Source: Chloranthus sessilifolius (taxonomy: Eukaryota > Streptophyta > Magnoliopsida > Chloranthales > Chloranthaceae). Taken from it: a DNA stretch of 64,000 nt. Positions within the stretch are counted from its first letter, which is position 1. The number at the start of each line of letters is the position of its first letter. The translations under genes and the position numbers were made by a program. The DNA is taken from assembly GCA_021018995.1 (NCBI GenBank), contig CM037593.1, positions 13,420,088 to 13,484,087 of the forward strand. Direction: 5' to 3'. Below are positions 3,263 to 60,645 of this stretch, piece by piece. Below the pieces are notes generated by a model. It was not told the DNA's origin. It saw only the letters and a list, made by a program, of their open reading frames with translations, and ran no database searches.

Positions 3263-3399
3263 CACTACAAAAAATTAGACAAATAGCGGTAGCCAAAAAC
3301 TGCCGCTATTAACAAAAAACTGCCGTCAATAGTCTTTAATAGTTTTTTGTTAATAGCGAGTAAAAAACTACCGCTAATAATGTACATTTTTTTGTAGTG
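3263..3399. mobile_element. CACTA-type MITE, 137 bp
   Basis: Starts CACTACAAAAAATTAG and ends TTTTTTGTAGTG, giving a 12-bp inverted terminal repeat of CACTA (En/Spm) type. Inside are inverted blocks around AAACTGCCGCTAATA. Flanking bases are AAA on both sides, consistent with the 3-bp duplication of this superfamily, though A-richness weakens that point. Related copies lie at 10379, 14505, 16688 and, degraded, at 20747. Confidence 0.85.
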
Positions 3400-10225: not shown

Positions 10226-10562
10226 AACCTCAAGGAGTTAGGTGAGCTGGCCAGGTACCTGCTTCCAAAAGCAGGAGACCTGAGTTTGAATCTCCTCCCC
10301 TCCCCCCCCCCCCTCTGAGGCCACCCTAGGGATTTATATCCTGTGTTGACCCGGCATGTGCTAAATTTGAAGTGTGCACACTACAAAAAATAAGACTATT
10401 AGGGTCAATTTTTTACTGTACAAAACTGTCGCTATTTAAAAAACAACTATTAACGGCAATTTTTTTGTTAGTAGCGGTAGTTTTGAGCTGCCGCTAATAG
10501 TCATATATTTTGTAGTGGCATGTGCCCCTGAGATTAAGCGGGTGCCCTAAGACGCCCAGATA
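10226..10562 (+). mobile_element. tRNA-derived SINE, interrupted by a CACTA MITE
   Basis: The head resembles a tRNA: an A-box-like TAGGTGAGCTGGCCAGG near 10238 and a B-box-like GAGTTTGAATCTCC near 10282, the spacing of a pol III internal promoter. A C-rich run and a body with GACCCGGCATGTG follow, then a MITE (10379-10517), then the SINE body resumes to an A/T-rich tail. Confidence 0.65.
10379..10517. mobile_element. CACTA-type MITE, 139 bp, TSD GCA
   Basis: CACTACAAAAAATAAG at the left and TTTTGTAGTG at the right, with GCA on both sides (10376-10378 and 10518-10520). It is inserted in the SINE at 10226. Confidence 0.9.
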
Positions 10563-14504: not shown

Positions 14505-14633
14505 CACTACAAAAAACAAGACTATTAGCAGCAGCAAAAAACTGCCACTAATACCCTTGCCGCTAATAGTCTTTACTAATTTTTTATTAATAGCGCTAAA
14601 AAACTGCCTCTAATAATTTATTTTTTTGTAGTG
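14505..14633. mobile_element. CACTA-type MITE, 129 bp, TSD TTA
   Basis: CACTACAAAAAACAAG on the left, TTTTTTTGTAGTG on the right, with TTA on both sides (14502-14504 and 14634-14636). Internal AAACTGCCACTAATA-type blocks match the other copies. Confidence 0.9.
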
Positions 14634-16687: not shown

Positions 16688-16881
16688 CACTACTAAAAAA
16701 CAAGTCTATTAGTGGCAGCCAAAAACTGCCATTATTAATAAAAAAACTGCCATTAATACCCTTGCTGCTAATAGTCTTTAATAGTTTTTAGTTAATAGTG
16801 GCATTTTTTTCCTTAAAAAAAAACTGCCATTAATACCCTTGCTTCAAAAAAATGCCACTAATAATCTATTCTTTTGTAGTG
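16688..16881. mobile_element. CACTA-type MITE, 194 bp, TSD TGG
   Basis: CACTACTAAAAAACAAG at the left, CTTTTGTAGTG at the right, TGG on both sides (16685-16687 and 16882-16884). The corresponding place in the paralogous block (about 44609) lacks it, so it inserted after the duplication. Confidence 0.85.
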
Positions 16882-23582: not shown

Positions 23583-23604
23583 CTAGTGGCACTGGACGTG
23601 TGTT
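23583..23604 (-). mobile_element. Helitron 3' end, cut by the CACTA element
   Basis: CTAG on the minus strand at 23583-23586, with hairpin-like sequence running to 23604, where the CACTA element begins. Sequence resuming at 30087 (GTTGCACATACATG) is presumably the rest of this Helitron. Its other end was not found. Confidence 0.45.
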
Positions 23605-25285
23605 CACTACCAAAAAAATGACTTTTGGAGACGGTTATTAGAGACGGCTTTTCGAAGCCGTCTATAATAACCAGTTATTAAAGACGATCATTCAAAAGCT
23701 GTCTTGAATGCTTTAATTAGAGACGGCTAAAGCCGTCTTTCTAAATAAAATAATATATAGACACGGACATGACCATCTCCATAAGTTCACTTCATATATA
23801 GGTAAGTGAAAAACTTCAGACACCATATTAAAAATAGTCTCTACAAGTCCCATTAACACCTATAGAGATGACTTGGAGCCGCCGTCTCCGTCAATATTTT
23901 TGTGTATGTACTTCTAAGTTTAGGGCCAAAGCCACCTACCCAATGCCTATATAACACTTTCGCACAACTATTCCATCGTGGCACGCAATTTTTTATTTTT
24001 TCCTCTCGTTCTCCCCGACTCGGAGAGCGATTATTTTATTTCTCTCGTTTTCCCTCCCTCGCCAACAACCCTAACCTAGGTTGAGATCAAATCACCGACC
24101 ATCAATTGCAGATCGGCGAACTAATTCCCAATCTCAGATTAGTGAGCTTGGAGCTCAAATCTCCAAATTTCTCAATCACGGATCGTGAATTGGTTCCCAA
24201 TCTCCAGATTTCTCAGTTGGAGTTATGATTTAGGCATTTTCGGAGTCAAAATTGCGTATTAAAAAGGTAGATCTATGATTTTTTTATTCGAAGTATTATT
24301 GAAGCTGTTTTTAAAGATCTTTGTTAGTTTTATGTGTATTTTTGGGTATTTTCTAGTGTTTTTTATAGTGAGAAGTTTGGGATTTAAGTGCATTTGTAGT
24401 TTTGGAGCCCTCGTTTCACCATTTGGCAGATGGAAGTCGAGTTTTGGAGCCCTAGTTCTACCCTCTGGCAGATTGAAATCGTGGTTTTAGCGATCAAATC
24501 AATTGATGGCGCCGAAATCCGACAATATCAAGGTCATCTCACCATCTTCTCTCCCTATTAGATCTAATTTTTTACTTCTTAGCCTGATTTATCTTAATTT
24601 TTTGGCAATTTTCTTTTTAATTTGGCTTAAATATTAGTGAACTGGATCAGATGGTTTGTTGATTGGGTAGGGATCTCAGGCCGAAGCTGTCCCAGTCAAC
24701 AAACCAGTTCATAACTTTTAGGTGTTTTAGATTTATAGTGTAACTTGTTGTCAATCGGATCCCTTGGCAATCGACGGGGAAGTGATAGATGGGAACTCTG
24801 TGAACCTCTGTAAACGGGGAGTCGATAAATGGGAATTTTGTGTAGCTGAGGCAGGGAGGAATGTTGTGTTTCTTCTTCTCTTCCTCATCTTCAATAATCG
24901 GCATTGGGACGGCAGTTCGATCTAATCGATTAATGATTCAAGAATTTGGATGCATTATATTTTTGGATATTATAATATACGCATTATACTTTTGGATATT
25001 ATAATAATAATTTTCTTTATTTTAGTTCTACTCAGGCATCTAATTAATGGCTGCACTTTGATTGCCTAGGAGGTTGATTCTGGATGATCTTTCTTTTTTT
25101 TAGGAGATTGACCCTCTTCACTGACATTATAAGATTATCAAGTTTATGAATATCCTATCAGCTCTCAAATCCTCTAGGAAACTGACTTTTACAGATTTTA
25201 GGGCTCTGACATTTGTCAAAATGTAAAACTCAACTTTCCATGGCATGGGTAGAGGGGATCTGTATGAGCTTGATAATAGTTTTTG

Positions 25286-25363
25286 TATATTAAGGTGGGT
25301 TATAGAAAGTACTTGGAGGTTGCCTATCACTTGTTCGAGGAAATGCCAAACCGAACCTACATC
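25286..25363 (+). pseudogene. PPR-like gene fragment
   Basis: A 26-codon stretch ending VAYHLFEEMPNRTYI resembles a pentatricopeptide repeat helix pair of the common plant type (A..LFDEMP.R). A GT follows directly at 25364, like a donor site. It is too short to be a gene and is probably a captured fragment inside the CACTA element. Confidence 0.45.
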
Positions 25364-26153
25364 GTAAGTTTAAATTATGTGCCGGTAAATCTGATTTTCT
25401 AATATTGCGATCAAGATTTTGATGTCATTAATTGCCTTTTTGATCACTTTGTAGTGAAGGAGCTACTAACCCCAATCATCATGTTACCCGCTTGTAAGAT
25501 TGTGTAAGATAAGTCATTAGAATGCTAGCATTAGTGATCCTTTAAAAACACCTCTCATCTAATAAAATGTGTAAATCAATTTGTTGGAGTAATGAAACTT
25601 CACGTTAACGTGTGTTTGCTATTCAAACCCCTAACCCAAATTAAAGCTTCCTAACTAATCTATTCCTTTCCTTTAAATAAAGGAAGTCAACATAAAAAAT
25701 TATTTCAGATTACATTTCAAGCATTCTCTCAGATCTCAGTTATTTCAGACTGCTTTATTTTTATGTCTGTTCATATTCTTCTTCTTGTTGAACTTGGTTG
25801 GTAAAGGTGTGTTGGCACATCTATACTGATTGCCAATTTATCTTTATCTGAATTCTTTTGTATCCATTGTGATTTATTTTAAGGTTAATGGGAGCTCACC
25901 TAGGTGTAAGATAAAGCCCACTGTCACAATTTTTGGGCCATGTGGTGGACTTTTTAGCCAATCCAAACTGTCTAGGTGGCTAAACTTTTTATTGGTGATC
26001 CTAGAATGATAAAAGAAGGTTAACTCTTAGAATATGTAACTAATGATAGGAGTGTGGTGTGTACTTGTATATTGGGTGTTTGTCTAGTACGCCAGCTACT
26101 TAAGCAGTTTTGCTTATGTTGTGCTTCTCAATATATGTGAGATTGTAATTACA

Positions 26154-26156
<3 letters not shown>

Positions 26157-26207
<51 letters not shown>
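26157..26207. repeat. TA microsatellite
   Basis: About 50 bp of TA inside the CACTA element. Confidence 0.95.
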
Positions 26208-26211
<4 letters not shown>

Positions 26212-26673
26212 AACTCATGTTAGAGTTACACCAACTCAACCCTAAATCTCTTGTATCTCTTCTCCTTCTTCTTTCCTCCTTCAAACCGTATCTTAGCTAA
26301 CTTCTATCTAATTAATGCTAGTCCAAGAACAGTAAACATTTCCGGTATGCGTCAGTTACATGGACATTTCTTTCATCTGATGGTTTGGGTAACAAATTTC
26401 AAGTGCAGGTTGTTTCTATCCTTTAGTCTACACAAGAGAAAGGAAATTTCAAGTGCAGGTTGCTTCATCTAATGGTTTTGCAATTTCGTCGCTTCGGCGA
26501 CCGAGCACGGTGAGATCGACTTGGCCAAGGACTACATTTAGTGTTTTTGTTACAATTCAATAATTCTTATGTTTTTTTTAGTCCAATTAGTGCTTTGAGT
26601 TAATATATCTGATTCCGTATGTTTTTTTTTTTTGACCGGTCTTTCTTGCTCTTATTTTGGCAGCTAAATGCTG

Positions 26674-26709
26674 ATAAAAGCCCTTTCCAAGAAACATTTG
26701 TTAATCAGG
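26674..26709 (+). other. Exon-like segment bounded by AG and GT
   Basis: A short open stretch reading NADKSPFQETFVNQ is preceded by a T-rich tract ending GGCAG (26660-26664) and followed by GTATGC (26710). It looks like a small captured exon, but I do not recognise the protein and the stretch is short enough to be chance. Confidence 0.25.
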
Positions 26710-27976
26710 TATGCACTGTCCATATGTTTTGACCTGTTTTAAGGTTGACTTCATAATACTCATTGCATTGATAATATAACGGAACCTATTGTGGTATCTG
26801 AGGTAAAACAGTTAATAATATCTAAGTTTTTAAATTTCTCTAATGCTGTCGTTTCTTAGTCTTCATATTATGTGATCTTCAGCAATTTCAAGTTCACTAA
26901 TTCTTGCTGAGTCTCCTACCGAACTATTGGTGAAACCAAGATTTGTTTTACCTTTTGTGGTGATAGAAATGCCGGTGAATCTCATGGATATGATTGTTGG
27001 ATTTTCCGGTTGGTGTAGATAATGATTATTGGATGTTCTGGTTGGTGATTTAATTATGGTCTTACCTCTATATTACTATTAAGAAGTGGGGTCATACATG
27101 ATAATAAACTTGCACATCTTAGTTATATCCACATTTTTTTTTCCTGATCAATAAAGATGTAATTTTATTAAGAAAATAAAATTACATTAGTGATCAAAGG
27201 ACTCAAGGGTGTAAATACAACCTGTTAGTGACTTAGCACCAACCTATTCGTGTACATATTTTTTGAACAACATCTTGAGGATTTGTGAATTGTGATACTA
27301 TTGTTCTTGAAATTGAGGCCTTAGAAGGGAATTTACCAGAATTTTCTATTATACACAGACATATAGTAGTGTATGGGCTTAGCAAAACACATTTTTTTTT
27401 CAACATAGTCATGAAGAGTTGGTATTAGGTAAGAGACTTGGGCGCCAGGTGACTTAGTTCACGGGTCACTTTTGGGACACGTGCCATGTGGTTTCATCAT
27501 ATGTGTCGTGTGATTTGATGACTAACATCTAAGCGATCAAAGTGTTGATTTATCAGAAAAAAGGCGAGGCGGGAAAAGTTGATTTACCAGAGAAAAGACC
27601 CGACCTGGTTCAAGCGGTGTTGTTATGGTCTCTAGCTCAAAAGATCAAAGTGTTACTAGGGCATCTGCAAATGGATTTTCAGATAAATATCTAAAAATAT
27701 TGCTTCCTGTTTGATTTTCAGATGGATATCTAACAATCAATATGTTGTTTATGTCTAGTTAAAGGCTTCGAACATCTTCAAAAACTAGGTATAGAAGCCC
27801 CAAATCTTAGCAGATCTACCCTAATAACACATGCCAAATTATCACAGATAGCACCAGGAACCAACAGTAGGTCAAATATGATCAAGAGACACCAACAACA
27901 CCAACATGCAGCAATAATTTACTGGGCTTAAAAATCTCAGGCGTGTGGGGCACTCTTTTCCAGTCTCTTCCTTATC

Positions 27977-27979
<3 letters not shown>

Positions 27980-28024
<45 letters not shown>
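27980..28024. repeat. CT then AT microsatellite
   Basis: (CT)n at 27980-28009 runs into (AT)n to 28024. Confidence 0.95.
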
Positions 28025-28025
<1 letters not shown>

Positions 28026-28732
28026 CCTTCGTATGAAAGAAGAAGAAAAAATAACAGAACTAAGAAATGAAAAAAATAAATAAAAGAACCATCGTTGTTT
28101 TCTCTGCGAGCATCCTCTCCAGGTTACCTTTGATTTTTTAAGTTTGCAAACTCCTCTGTTTTTTTTTTTAACTTTCCACAAGAACACAGCAATAGCAAAC
28201 TCCATGGTTAGCAAAATAGCCATCTCAAATCTCCATAGATTGCTATCTATGTCCAGGCTTTTTTTTACTTTTGCAAGCTCTTGTGCTAAGAAACTCCTCT
28301 GTTTTCTAATCTTTTTTTTACTTTTGGTAAGTTCTCTCTCATAATGCAGCATCTAAACAAGATAGCACTCAAATTGCGTAGGCATGTTTCCAAGAAAAAA
28401 ATCCCACTATCCATCTTGGTAATAATATGCCTAAAAAATCTCCTTCAAGTTAAAGGTACCAAAGAATGATATAAAGCAATTCGAGTCCTAACAAGAAGAA
28501 CATGAATCTCCACCGTAGTTGCCACAAAAAAGTTATGGATGCAGATGAATAGACCAATGCCATACAGATATTTTAGATTAATGCATTTGGGCACCATGTT
28601 TAATGCATTAGCAGATTGATTAACCAACTGGCTCTTTTGTTTTTCTATCAGACATGGTTCTTGGTCTTCTCGTGTTTTATTCTTGGTAATGGAATCTATC
28701 TTGTATCTGATATGCCTATTTATTTGTTGCAG

Positions 28733-28948
28733 AGAGGTGAAGCCAAACTTTTGACAGAAGATTGGGAGGGAGCTGTGGAAAACCTGAAAATAGCTGCTCA
28801 AAAACAGGACAACTTTAAAGAGTTTTATTTGAGTACACAAGGAAATTGGGATTCTTCCAAAGTTTGGGATAAGGTTCTGCGAGATATTGATGCACATATA
28901 GCTTCAGTCCGTGCAGAGAAACTGTCTGAACTTACTACACTACATGAG
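28733..28948 (+). pseudogene. Chimeric exon: P58IPK-like fragment joined to RHD3-like fragment
   Basis: One open frame contains QRGEAKLLTEDWEGAVENLK, which matches the last TPR region of plant P58IPK/DNAJC3 co-chaperones (family text RGEAKLLTEDWEGAV.DLK.AAQKS), ending about 28807. The same frame continues with NWDSSKVWDKVLRDIDAH and IASVRAEKLSELTTLHE, which matches the helical part of plant RHD3/SEY1 dynamin-like GTPases (NWDSSK..DKLRRDIDAHV, KLSELTTLYE). A pyrimidine-rich stretch with AG at 28731-28732 precedes it, and GTATGA at 28949 follows where RHD3 has an exon end. The flanking J domain and GTPase domain are absent, so neither protein function can remain. It lies in the CACTA element and could be expressed from a captured or nearby promoter. 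Family matches are from memory. Confidence 0.75.
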
Positions 28949-30089
28949 GTATGAGGGTCTAAATAACAGATCACATTTTCTCAGAGTAAAATGTTCAATT
29001 GCTAGCTATTTATAGTTCATATTAGGGGCGTCAATGGGCAGGGCCTGACTTTTAACAAAGTTCACTCACTAGCAAGCAATGGCCTGCTTTAATTAAGTCA
29101 ATCTGCGCTTCTTTGAAAGTGCACCGACCTGGAAAAATTTGGGGATACCCGAAAAATTCGGGGATACATTTTATTTCTCAGCTTTGCATTTTTGTAAAGC
29201 TAAAAATCGGGGATACCCGAAAATCTCCTAAAACTGTGATACCTGAACCGGGGAATAATTCTTTTTTTGTAAAACTAAGCCTTCTATCTGTTAGACCCCT
29301 GATACTATTTCAGGCCAGCCACTGGCTTAATATTTTAGGTTCAACTAATTAATGAGCATGTTGGGGGCTAGGCCTTTTAGGCTCAGAGCCAACACTTGGC
29401 AGCTCTAGGTGAAAACAGGTATCGGGTTTAAAACTTAAAATTTGTTGTGCCTATACCTGTGCCAATTGGAAAAATCATATGATATTTTCTATCGTCCGAA
29501 AGACAATTTTTAGTCTTACTATAGATGACAAAGTCTTTCCGATACTTTGTATTCCTTTGTTTTTATGCCCAGTGAGATGATGACTTTTTTAAAATTTATA
29601 GTATATATTGGCATACTTATAAGAACAATTCCCATTTGCCTTGTCATGGGCCAAAATAGTGGCTCTTTGTTGAGACCTGGCCATGTGTTCAATGGGGGGC
29701 CATGGTACTGATACCCAACTAATAGTGGTCGGGTAAATCTAGCAACCTCTTTTCAGTTTCCATGTTTTGATTTACAGTGCCAATAATAGTTAATATCCCC
29801 AACTAACATTAGATCACTTATTGGAGACGGCCAAAATTCATCTCCAATAACAAGAGATGACTTATTAGAGACGGCTTTAATGTGTCTCCAACATATCTTT
29901 GGAAACGGCTTATGGCCGTCTCCAATAACCTTGACTACTAGAGACGGCTCCCATTTGGTCTCCAAAGACAATGGAGACGGGATTATTTGAGACTACATGG
30001 AAGCCATCTCCAATACTATTGGAGACGGCTTAAACACCTTTGGAGACGGCTTTTAGCCGTCTCCAATAAACACATTTTTTGTAGTGGTT

Positions 30090-38893: not shown

Positions 38894-41597
38894 TGTAACC
38901 ATCCTAAAATTCTGAGACTTTATGACTGCTTTGGTATACGTGCCTGGCACAGAAATCGAGATGAATGTAAAATTTTGGGATAATAATATTATCAATCTGT
39001 AAGCACATGAAACCGTAGGTCACGTGTGACACGAATCTGAGATCCGATTGTACCTTTGGTAGAATATGATACGCATGAGTGTGGTGTATGCGCTCAACAC
39101 CGGAGCGAATGAATAAAATGGAAATATCTTGGATATTTCCATTAGTTAGCTTATAAGGAAAGGAAGGTTAGAGAAGACATATCTCTCTTCCTTCTCCCAA
39201 ACGGTACTTGCAAGCTAAATGCTAGGAATCCCTCTATGAAACTTGTGTAAGAGAAGCCCTAGATTCGGATCCTTTGATTTAGAGCGTAAAGGAATCAACG
39301 TGTAGACGTCAAATCGGTTAGAGATGGTAATACACGTCTATGTGTTAGCGTGGATTCTATCTCCGATTCTTCGGAGAGCTCACCTTGACAAACTCGCGAG
39401 TTTTAGATCCGAAGAACCGCCTTAAGCCGAAGGATTTCCTTTGACCAAGGAATCAACTTAAAGGAGGTGAGTGACTATGTTTCTTAGAAGTTTAAATGTC
39501 ATAAATGTGCATTTATGTATGTGTAAATGATTCGGGAAGAATTATAAGTTTTGGAAAAAAATTAGGTTATGATTCATCGATCTGTATTAATGGCAATTAC
39601 TGTCATTTCTGATCGATCAAATTGGATTTTTGATCAATCAAATTATAATCCGATCGATCAAATTTGGGATTTGATCGATCGAATTTTATAAACCCTTATA
39701 TAGCAGAAGGGTGATTTAAAGAAGTTTAGGCTCGATGATATTGATCGATCAAATTGGTGATTTGATCGATCAAATTTAAAACTGATCGATCAAAATATGA
39801 AGTGATCGATCAAGTATGAATTGTTCGATCAATTGAGAATTGATTGATCAAACTGTGAGATTGATCGATCAAATTAGAGATTTGATCAATCGAATTTTAT
39901 AAATACCTTATATAACAAGAGGTATATTTTTTTGAATTTTTGACTTGAAATATCCAATCGATCAAACTTGAGGATTGATCGATCAACTTGAGGATCCGAT
40001 CGATCAAATAGGAAATTGATCGATCAAATTTCCTATGTTCTAATTTGTGTAAAAGGTTGGTTTTGATCAATCAAATAAGAGAATTGATCGATCAACTTGT
40101 GAATTCGATCGATCAAATAAGGAATTGTTTGATCAGATTTCCTCTGTTCTATTTGAATAAGATGAGTTGATTGATCAGATGTGAATCTGATTGATCAAAT
40201 AGGGAGTTGATTGATCAGATTTCCCAATTGATCAAATGATGAGTTGATTGATCAGATGTGAATCTGATTGATCAAATGAGGAGATTGATCGATCGAATTC
40301 CCTATTCTGTCTTGTTTTAGTTTTTTGAAAAAAATACTGTTGGGTAGTGTACCAATTATTGTTTTGACACCTTTGACACTTAGGATATTGTACGTATGGT
40401 CTAGGTCAAGACTAGGGCATATTAAAAAGCTTTGGATTTGCTTAAAAAAACCTGATCTGAGGTAGGAGAAATTTAACTTAACTTATGTTCGATATTGACT
40501 GCATGGTTTCCTAGCATATGTATCTAATTTCTTCTGTTTTGAAAGCATGTCTTGGATATGATAAAAACCTTGTTATCTGATTCTGCTATTTGATTATGAG
40601 GTCTTTATGTGTATTAATTCAAAGTTCATGTGACAGGATACGCACGATCGGCACTGCAAGATATTTGTGTATCTGATTTGTAAACCTTTAGCACAAGTTA
40701 CTCTCCTTTGAAGATGCTTGATACAATTATCTACAATTGTTCATTGAACGATGATGGTCGAGGTTACCCATCGGCACACATCTGGCTACTACGTGCTATA
40801 TTCACGGGAGTTACTTAAGTATAGAATTTAAGTCATTAAACACTGTATGCATACATCTGAAAACTTTGAGATTATAGTTCATTTCTGTGATTCTACATCT
40901 GTTCTGTTCTGTTATTCTGTTTCTGCTCTGTTTACTAAAAGTTTTGCATTCTATATCAGTTCATTCTGTCTGTATTCTCTGATTCAAATATCTGTTCTGA
41001 GTTATGTTCTGCAACCATGGTTTATATTTTAGATGCAATTTACTTGAGTTTCTTCTATTGAGCTTAGATGGATAGCTCACCCTATTTTTATATAATAGGT
41101 TCTGAGGCTAGGGTTCCTGGTACTGAGAGCGATCCTAACTATCAGCCAGAGTCGGAGGCTAAGGAGGATGACACTGATACCTCTGCTGACGAGTTCTATT
41201 AGTAGCTAGGGTATTAGTTTATGTTTTGAGTTATGTACTTATATTTTTGAATTATCTGTGTGCCTGGTGCCCACTTTTCTGTATTTATTTACTGTAGTTG
41301 TTTATTTATAGCATTATACATTTTATAGGAACCATTATTTTGGGTAATGGATGTCCATCACCAGTGGTTCTTGTTGGTTCATTTTTGAGGATGTATATTC
41401 TTTTAATTTATATATATGTATTGTTTTATTTATTTCTTTCTTTTAGAGCCTTATATTATGACTCGATCTGTCACGTTAGAAAGTGTCTGCTCTGATTTCT
41501 ACTAGACCAATAGACACTCTTTGATTTGTTCCGGGGATCATCCACGCTATGATCTTGATGGCACGAGTTTTCGGGTGCAGAAATCTGGGCTGTCACT
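38894..41597 (+). repeat. 3' LTR of the chromovirus, about 2.7 kb
   Basis: Starts TGTAACCATCCTAAAATTC and ends near GGGCTGTCAC, forming the short terminal inverted repeat of TGTNACAGCCC-type gypsy LTRs. It shares overall layout and the string GATGGATAGCTCACCCTAT with the solo LTR at 58051. It contains a large palindrome cluster. Confidence 0.8.
39590..40300. repeat. Cluster of TTGATCGATCAA-type palindromes in the LTR
   Basis: More than twenty GATCGATCAAA or close variants in about 700 bp, mostly 15-25 bp apart, giving regions such as GATTGATCGATCAA. The density is far above the surrounding sequence. Confidence 0.9.
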
Positions 41598-58050: not shown

Positions 58051-60645
58051 TGTAATAGCCCGAAAAATCACGCTAAACTATGACCTTGGGATCCGTGCCC
58101 GATTGGTCACAAGTTGGACCAATCAGGAGATCATGAGTTAGCATAGAATGTGATGAACGGACGAGATGTGATAGTTTGAGTGATTATGTAGTGTGTGATG
58201 TAAATGAGAAGTCACTTACACCTACTGCGGTGTATGTGCTCAACACACAAAGAGGGAGATAGATAAAAGGGTTTAATAACCCTAGATGTGTATTTTGGTT
58301 GTTGAAGGAGAGTAAAGAAGAGAGAGAAAGAGAGAGAAGTAAGAGAGGAGTTATTGCAACTAATTGGAGGGGGGATTCAAGAGATAAAAGCCGGATTCAA
58401 CGCGATTTGGATCTGTTAGAGCTAAAGCTGGAAACCCTAGCCTTCCAACTAATTGATTGAAATCAACTTGAGATCTATTCAAGGTAAAATTTTTGTAAAT
58501 AAAATGCATAGATTATAGGGGTTAAGTTGTGATTGAATGTGGGTTAAATCATAGGATAATGGCTTAGAAAAAATAGAGGAAAAAGTATGGAAGAAGATTG
58601 GGAAGAACAGCTCGAAAGGGGCTGAATCTGACAATTTCGATTAATCGAAATTGGGTTTCGATTAATCGAAATTGGCCAGGAAGTTGAAAGGTCAGAGGAC
58701 CCCGATTTCGATTAATCGAATTTGATTTCGATTAATCGACTTTGGATTTCGATTAATTGATTTGGGGATCGATTAATCGACTGAGAACCTCCAGTGGACC
58801 CCAGGGGTTGGAGGAAATGACTTAAGGAAAAATCGACTAATCGAAATGGGATTTCGATTAATCGATTTTAGTTTTCGATTAATCGATTTGGGATCGATTA
58901 ATCAACTTGTGAAACTCATCGTTGACCGAGGGTCGACTTTGCGAAAAGAAGAATTTCGATTAATCGAAATTGGATTCGATTAATTGAATGAAAACTCGAC
59001 TGTTCGAACTGAGGATCGACTTTGCGAAAAGGAGAATTTCGATTAATCGAAATTGGATTCGATTAATCGAATGAAAACTCGACTGTTCGAACTGAGAATC
59101 AACTTTGCGAAAAGGAGAATTTCGATTAATCGAAATTACTTCGATTAATCGATATTGACCTTCGATTAATCGATTTTGGAAATCGATTAATTGAATCAGA
59201 TTCGATTAATCGATTTTGGAATTCGATTAATCGGCTGAGATAGATTATGTTGACTTTTGGGTTTGACTTTAAGATTCTTGGAGGGTCTTATACCTTCTTT
59301 ATTGCATCCTTTGTGATGTGTTTCACCCGTTATGTGGTACCATAGGTGGTACGTGTGGACTAGTGCACAAGGAGCCACGTGGGACCTTGATGCATTGATC
59401 AAATGAAGACTTGAGGTAGGGAACACCTTGAACATGTACCTTATTTTACATGAGCATGTATGTAGTGATATAGAATTCAATTCAAATGTTTATTTCTTAA
59501 GAATTTGTGAAAAGTGTGTGTGTGTGACATCCATAAGAGTAATCATAAGGAGCCATCCCCAGGGATGTATCCAAGGATTGAATCATGTTTGATAGGGCCT
59601 AACTGATATAAGATAGCACATTTACACGGTGAATAACTATATGTAAGGCACCGATATTTTTGTTATTTGAGGTTTGATAGGGTACCCCACCGACGTGGCG
59701 GGATATCCACGTCGACACGGCAGGATATCCGTGATCGTCTGGCGGCAAAGTAGGCCGGTCGGAGGCTTATCCAGTACATAGTAAGCACACCCAGGGTGTT
59801 GATTGAGACAAGTGAAACTCCTCGCCACCAATCCCGTGAAAGGGGCTTGGTACTATTTGTATTCCTGTGAATATCTTAAAACCGCTTATAGATGACGATG
59901 AAGGGTATCTCATCGGGGCTCGATGCTATATTGCTCGGGGATTACTTAAGTTGAAAGTTTAAGTTTTGCTTTAGGCCTTTTCAGCATCATTCATGAGTAA
60001 ATGAAAATATAAGTAATCAACAGTAAAACGAAATGCTTTTTAATTGTTTCATTAACAACTGCATAGATACTTCATGCATGGCATATCATGGAATATATGT
60101 GAGTTATAATTTATATGTTCAACCGTGTTTGTTCTCTATTGAGCTAGGATGTAGCTCACCCTATAGACTATACGTCGCAGGTCCACTACTAGCAGCTGCC
60201 GAGGCTTCAGGAGACGCTGATCCCGGCGAGTCGGACCTTGCGGCCGGTGAAGAGTTGGAGCCACCTCTAGAGGACTTCTTCTAGAGGACTCCGTTGTGCC
60301 ACTTTGAGGGATTTTGGAGAGAGTTTTTGTACGGCTTGGTATGTCAAGCCTTGATTCTGTTTAAACCATGTATATATATATATAGATGGGATTATTCTTT
60401 TGGGGCGAACCATCCGTGATGATTGCTATCATCGATGGTTCGGATCGGTTCTCCATTCATGTAGAGGCATGAGGGTAGAACTGTCTTTTGGAGAGTTAAT
60501 TAATATAGATTCAAATTCTGCAATTTCGTTTATTATTTTATTGCAATGCTTGATATACCAGTGTTCCGTGCTTAGCTAAGGGGCACGGTCAAGATGATCG
60601 TGCTGATGGCACGGGTTTCGGGGTGCCGAAATCCGGGCTGTCACA
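58051..60645 (+). mobile_element. Solo LTR, 2.6 kb, gypsy TGTNANAGCCC family, TSD TTTAT
   Basis: Starts TGTAATAGCCCGAAAAATC and ends AATCCGGGCTGTCACA, with TTTAT on both sides (58046-58050 and 60646-60650). It matches the layout of the chromovirus LTR at 38894-41597, including GAGCTAGGATGTAGCTCACC near 60141. The perfect duplication suggests a fairly recent insertion into the Athila-like element. A small open frame at its end (60033-60284) is incidental. Confidence 0.9.
58630..59240. repeat. Cluster of TTCGATTAATCGAA palindromes in the solo LTR
   Basis: More than twenty CGATTAATCG motifs in about 600 bp, many as full 14-bp palindromes. It includes an approximately 93-bp tandem duplication (58944-59130, with AACTCGACTGTTCGAACTGA repeated). 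Confidence 0.9.

Follow-up and report, generated by a model that had tools for sequence, protein, structure and literature searches.

The exon-like stretch at positions 28733..28948 of the 64,000-nucleotide window of DNA analysed here (G000:C10:13420088-13484087; genome size 2.17 Gb) is very probably, at odds that we put near 0.85, a passenger exon carried by a non-autonomous Pack-CACTA element similar to Tgm-Express. It joins pieces of three host genes, P58IPK, CUL4 and RHD3, in one reading frame. We infer the further step, from such a stretch to a spliced exon, from the splice sites that it has inherited and from the behavior of soybean Tgm-Express1.

The stretch lies on the + strand, comprises 216 nt or 72 codons, and belongs to a stop-to-stop frame (28604-28954) whose translation shows no internal stop before its end. 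It is preceded by TTTGTTGCAG, the splice acceptor of P58IPK, and followed by GTATGA, the splice donor of RHD3, so that both edges of the exon fall between codons (phase 0/0). An earlier, sequence-only reading had described a single frame running from P58IPK into RHD3 between an AG and a GT, and this description holds. The P58IPK part (28733..28804, +, 24 codons, RGEAKLLTEDWEGAVENLKIAAQK) lacks the last 9 nt of the parental exon as well as its donor. It is continued by 31 nt of CUL4 (28805..28835, +), made up of the CAG that ends an intron (an acceptor) and of the start of the following exon, which in the CUL4 frame gives ten codons, QDNFKEFYLS, the first of them derived from the acceptor CAG; the peptide is DNFKEFYLS in the window copy of the element (hereafter W) and DIFKEFYLS in the copy on C8. 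The RHD3 part (28836..28948, +, about 37-38 codons) covers the three-helix-bundle region and stops where the RHD3 exon ends, at GAG followed by GTATGA.

Intron sequence of two of the parents borders the exon. Upstream lies a piece of P58IPK intron (28525..28732, +), which has undergone an internal deletion of ~0.9 kb and ends in the acceptor TTTGTTGCAG; downstream lies a piece of RHD3 intron (28949..29143, +) that carries the donor GTATGA. All of the cargo, namely the P58IPK intron and exon, the start of the CUL4 exon, and the RHD3 exon and intron, is in the sense orientation. The P58IPK acceptor and the RHD3 donor are kept and the P58IPK donor and the RHD3 acceptor are lost, while the final bases of the CUL4 acceptor survive within the exon, where they could act as a candidate second, weaker acceptor. 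The reading frames of the three genes agree across the exon; by our reckoning this would happen by chance about once in 9 cases if the joints were random, and frame agreement is thus by itself unremarkable.

As a PDB search with the whole chimera as the query was weak, giving three chains at an E of at most 10 with cyclophilin 40 (0.0061) as the top match, the genome itself was used to identify the parents. With a P58IPK-like protein as the query, a single colinear run of exons appeared at C2:128.689-128.715 Mb; with an RHD3-like protein there were two, at C10:23.997-24.039 Mb and at C1:132.05-132.15 Mb. CUL4, represented in the query by its C-terminal part, has a colinear exon run at C6:7.970 Mb. 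Several exon matches of these genes contain stops, perhaps where the alignments run into introns; one following P58IPK exon that was checked is open. P58IPK and RHD3 are, as claimed, separate genes. At the DNA level, 28704-28804 is 97% identical over 101 bp to the P58IPK exon and its acceptor, 28525-28706 is 93% identical over 189 bp to the intron preceding that exon, and 28837-29143 is 90% identical over 311 bp to the RHD3 exon and the following intron; each half of the exon therefore has the similarity expected of it. The 72-residue peptide also matches the Pfam family Sey1_3HB at an E of 1.3e-5; its 24.7 bits exceed the cut-off of 24, a threshold that is missed when longer frames are used (23.2 bits for a 116-residue frame and 17.8 for another).

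The proposal that shuffling had made a two-gene exon stands insofar as the pieces are fused inside a CACTA element and the outer splice sites come from the parents, but it had missed the third parent, CUL4, which supplies the ten middle codons. A genome-wide search with the C7 form of the 31-nt CUL4 stretch, tolerating three mismatches, gave 18 matches, compared with 0 for the reversed pattern. They consist of four CACTA copies, the relative on C7, the CUL4 gene and 12 sites elsewhere. At L036, one of these 12, it forms the start of a reading frame that matches Pfam Cullin with an E of 3.6e-15 and, as its best PDB chain, Cullin-4B with an E of 4e-18. Random filler, considered as an origin of the 31 nt, is ruled out by the 18 matches against none for the reversed pattern and by the cullin exon that the stretch opens.

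The exon resides in a CACTA element of 6,482 bp (23605..30086, +), apparently non-autonomous, whose terminal inverted repeats are CACTACCAAAAAA, starting at 23605, and TTTTTTGTAGTG, ending at 30086. The element is flanked by a target-site duplication GTT, the left copy of which (23602..23604), read directly, equals the right one (30087..30089). Subterminal repeats of the GGAGACGGC type, counted with one mismatch allowed, have 16 matches in the window where 3.54 are expected, and 14 of these lie close to the termini of the element. By its ends, its duplication and its subterminal repeats, the CACTA context named in the sequence-only reading was correctly identified.

A Pfam search in six frames of the element and of the extra block of the copy on C2 detected no transposase domain, and the element is filed as non-autonomous for this reason. 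At an E of 0.1, the same sequences gave two weak matches in minus frames, Amastin (0.017) and DACNG (0.091), both far under their cut-offs and the latter located in the extra block. This block of ~2.25 kb (L009:6010-8250), which W lacks near its 3′ end at 29799..29806 (+), is found in both the C2 and the C8 copy; the C9 copy has it too, together with an additional insertion. It contains coding-like stretches, parts of it recur at many other genomic sites, and it has no convincing Pfam family, the weak DACNG match being the most that it displays. Of the 39 other family members that were scored, the one tried as an autonomous partner (L053, 6.5 kb), whose left end was not found, had no Pfam match at an E of 0.01. 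A six-frame search of the flanks of W, 10 kb to the left and 10 kb to the right, returned six Pfam families at an E of 0.01, five of retrotransposon type plus Transposase_32, so no host gene is evident there, although exons devoid of a domain would escape such a search.

Elsewhere in the window, there are four miniature elements of CACTA type (3263-3399, 10379-10517, 14505-14633 and 16688-16881; 129-194 bp) with CACTAC...GTAGTG ends, each of which has an identical triplet on both sides (AAA, GCA, TTA and TGG), and two minisatellites (39608-40307 and 58635-59233) composed of ~20-bp units on palindromes (TTGATCGATCAA-like and TCGATTAATCGA-like). A bacterial promoter scan, which has no bearing on a plant gene, found promoter-like sites no more often than in shuffled sequences.

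The fusion is found in four copies of the element: W on C10 and those at C2:7.6 Mb, C8:97.5 Mb and C9:69.4 Mb, the latter three also having CACTA ends and occupying unrelated sites. With host-gene pieces between its ends and a cargo multiplied into four copies at unrelated sites, the element qualifies as a Pack-CACTA. The flanking triplets are GTT/GTT in W, TTT/TTT in C8, ATT/ATT in C9 and TCA/CCA, one base off, in C2; a fifth element, located at C2:106.55 Mb, has ATT/ATT, which makes the 3-bp duplication exact in four of five elements and in three of the four fusion copies. The C2 copy is 8,826 bp long. The C9 copy retains residues 1-58 of the fusion and has a TAG stop and a 20-nt deletion. 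Identity, counted over aligned columns free of gaps, is 99.07% between W and C2 and 98.75% between C8 and C9, and the two pairs are 4.1-4.5% apart. The family is large, as the last 297 bp of the element matched at 91-100% in 40 scored candidates (W included) out of 1,056 first-look ones.

The element at C2:106.55 Mb has the same CACTA ends but no fusion block. In place of the fusion it contains ~1.48 kb of other sequence (L048:127-1607, C2:106.556 Mb) whose beginning (CACTACGTGAAAAAGCC) resembles the terminus of another CACTA element, and it is ruled out as an empty CACTA site.

Two further loci look like candidate stages in the assembly of the fusion, although, instead of being ancestors, they may represent side branches. 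The sequence upstream of the P58IPK piece (27655..28524, +) is common to W and a relative at C7:9.997 Mb (L018), and 28324-28524 within it is also shared with a locus at C10:94.58 Mb (L044). L044 contains this upstream sequence, the P58IPK intron with the ~0.9-kb internal deletion and the P58IPK exon, which has one extra base, reaches its own end (with the last base changed) and is followed by its intron; neither CUL4 nor RHD3 sequence lies next to it. In L018, the P58IPK piece recurs and is followed by 38 nt of CUL4 and then by ~815 bp of RHD3, including the end of the RHD3 intron, and the frame encounters a TAG ahead of the RHD3 exon. The four CACTA copies lack 52 nt that are present in L018 at the CUL4/RHD3 joint, and this loss removes both the stop and the RHD3 acceptor, bringing the frames together. 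For the shuffling envisaged earlier, these relatives suggest a series of distinct joining steps, with the single frame produced by a later 52-nt deletion.

Each of the four joints that were scored displays 2-3 bp of microhomology: TAT at the intron deletion, AAA at the P58IPK/CUL4 joint, ACA at the CUL4/RHD3 joint and AA at the 52-nt deletion. Two or more shared bases are expected by chance at 16% of joints in a simple model, and for four of four joints our multiplication, which assumes independence, gives ~0.0006. The TAT at the intron deletion was obtained with a close anchor in L044; an initial scoring that used anchors farther away had, owing to substitutions in the vicinity, shown no overlap in the two sequences to which it was applied. 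The ACA overlap is present with four of five RHD3 sequences, all dispersed copies (L014, L016, L019 and L020), but not with the RHD3 gene itself (L012), so the immediate donor of the RHD3 piece may be a dispersed copy. From these relatives and joints we infer an order of events in which the pieces would have been joined in turn via microhomology-guided end joining or template switching. The 52-nt deletion would then have removed the RHD3 acceptor and the in-frame stop, leaving one symmetric exon, and the composite would have multiplied as CACTA copies transposed with the help of a transposase from another source. Given transcription, either on its own or as part of a host intron, the stretch of 216 nt could be included by splicing as a cassette that keeps the frame.

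Single exons of P58IPK, CUL4 and RHD3 are each dispersed at several to many sites in the genome, as if these genes were favored donors of transposon cargo in this plant. The 22 matches to the fusion comprise the four element copies and two at L018. Ten more are on the RHD3 side, namely the gene, its seven close copies and a pair of more distant loci that includes the second RHD3 gene, and six are on the P58IPK side (the gene and five copies). CUL4-exon loci are many; all of these counts of dispersed fragments are lower bounds. CUL4 and RHD3 pieces occur together at another locus too (L020, C1:138.18 Mb), where they lie ~1 kb apart on the same strand (L020:3682-3826 and ~L020:4769-5090, respectively).

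W and C8 differ in the exon at 9 of 216 positions (4.2%), about as much as in the 5′ part of the element (213 of 4,825, 4.4%) and in the 3′ part (34 of 943). The differences are unevenly distributed, with 2 in 208 positions of the P58IPK intron piece and 28 in 194 positions of the RHD3 intron piece. The latter piece also separates W from C2, at 18 of 194 positions compared with ~0.7% in the 5′ part; in W these differences are clustered at ~29055-29120, as if this segment had been patched by error-prone repair or conversion.

That the chimeric exon is part of a working new gene or encodes a microprotein, and has come under selection after its assembly, is a reading to which we assign very little probability. 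It would account for a frame that stays open over three parents and is symmetric in phase, for the presence of the acceptor and the donor in all four aligned copies, and for the identity of the 72 residues of W and C2, which differ by one silent change. The pattern of substitutions speaks against it. By the Nei-Gojobori method, W and C8 are separated by 2 synonymous changes in 45.5 sites and 7 nonsynonymous ones in 170.5 sites (dN 0.041, dS 0.044), and C2 and C8 by 1 and 7, respectively (dN 0.041, dS 0.022), placing dN/dS near or above 1 in both comparisons. Measured against the parents, a check proposed together with the original claim, all six changes in W (two in the P58IPK part and four in the RHD3 part) and nine of ten in C8 (three and six, with one synonymous) are nonsynonymous, which gives no sign of selection, albeit with low power. 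Furthermore, the divergence of the exon is like that of most of the element, one of the four copies is broken, and the element has no other Pfam coding domain at an E of 0.1 except the weak Amastin and DACNG matches. Purifying selection on the frame was not found in these comparisons, in which nine exon differences afford little power to exclude weak selection. On present evidence, the exon appears to drift neutrally with no selected product, and a functional product is not supported by changes that look neutral or by a copy that carries a stop and a 20-nt deletion.

That the element supplies small RNAs acting on P58IPK, CUL4 and RHD3, either to silence or to tune them, is likewise improbable. 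Between 31 and ~110 nt of exon, and more with the introns, are close to each parent and are present in repeated copies, a length sufficient for siRNAs; but all three pieces run in the sense direction, and fragments of the parents are dispersed at other sites too, so an effect could not be credited to the chimeric exon alone. The readings that would dissolve the chimera altogether, by chance resemblance of its halves or by their derivation from one ordinary gene, are both refuted and retain practically no weight, since the 97% and 90% DNA matches extend into parental introns and the parents are on different contigs (C2, C10 and C6). There is, by comparison, a real if lesser chance that the three-gene block was built elsewhere, at a locus like that at C7:9.997 Mb, and was taken up whole, a variant that is compatible with a passenger exon in a Pack-CACTA element. 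L018 shares only 27655-29143 with the element and has no CACTA end (at most one mismatch, 10 kb examined), and at C2:106.55 Mb an element with the CACTA ends of the fusion copies lacks the block; both observations speak for uptake as a whole. On the other hand, L018 may itself be a decayed element, and the middle of the C2:106.55 Mb element has been replaced by other sequence, of which the beginning resembles another CACTA end, so that it is not a clean empty site.

As a passenger exon in a Pack-CACTA element, the fusion is a known kind of gene shuffling that is unusually well documented within one genome. Tgm-Express1, a CACTA element in the soybean F3H gene, is reported to carry pieces of five host genes and to give rise to many chimeric spliced transcripts (PMC1947982). 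The element described here is similar in that it carries unrelated host-gene pieces with their intron splice sites kept; it differs in that three genes are fused in one uninterrupted exon-like stretch, recognized in the sequence, and in that stage-like relatives occur in the same genome. Pack-CACTA and other Pack-TYPE elements are described as non-autonomous DNA transposons that capture and multiply coding DNA, as this one does, and can supply exons, and a tandem-insertion model has been put forward for them (PMC8903248), whereas the four joints scored here have the appearance of joining at microhomology. Breakpoint microhomology (median 2 bp) is a feature shared with animal Pack-TIR elements, for which a gap-filling model is presented, mainly for single-copy elements (PMC8277862), while the present case is a multicopy plant CACTA. 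Captured fragments have been reported in CACTA elements of Chenopodium as well (PMC8978399). The maize retroelement Bs1 similarly combines pieces of three host genes into a chimera, reported in a review to be transcribed and translated (PMC13317346), whereas the present element is a DNA transposon whose chimera is recognized at the level of sequence. Literature searches with exact words, in a limited collection, gave among the papers listed none that names both P58IPK and RHD3, and found none on cullin gene fragments captured by CACTA elements.

The stitching together of host genes by transposons has mostly been inferred from end products. Here, the three parents, the one-gene and the unfused three-gene relatives, and the four fused copies are all contained in one genome, so the order and the microhomology of the joints can be proposed base by base. 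It is highly doubtful that the fusion already works as a mobile in-frame cassette exon, with at least one copy used in a real protein, or that its small RNAs jointly tune three housekeeping genes. If it did, a sense landing in a phase-0 intron would add a 72-residue P58IPK/CUL4/RHD3 peptide to the product of the host gene without breaking its frame. The four copies indicate that an apparently unselected deletion of 52 nt can make one symmetric exon, ready for splicing, out of three fragments, and they provide a ready case for asking whether such exons are ever used.
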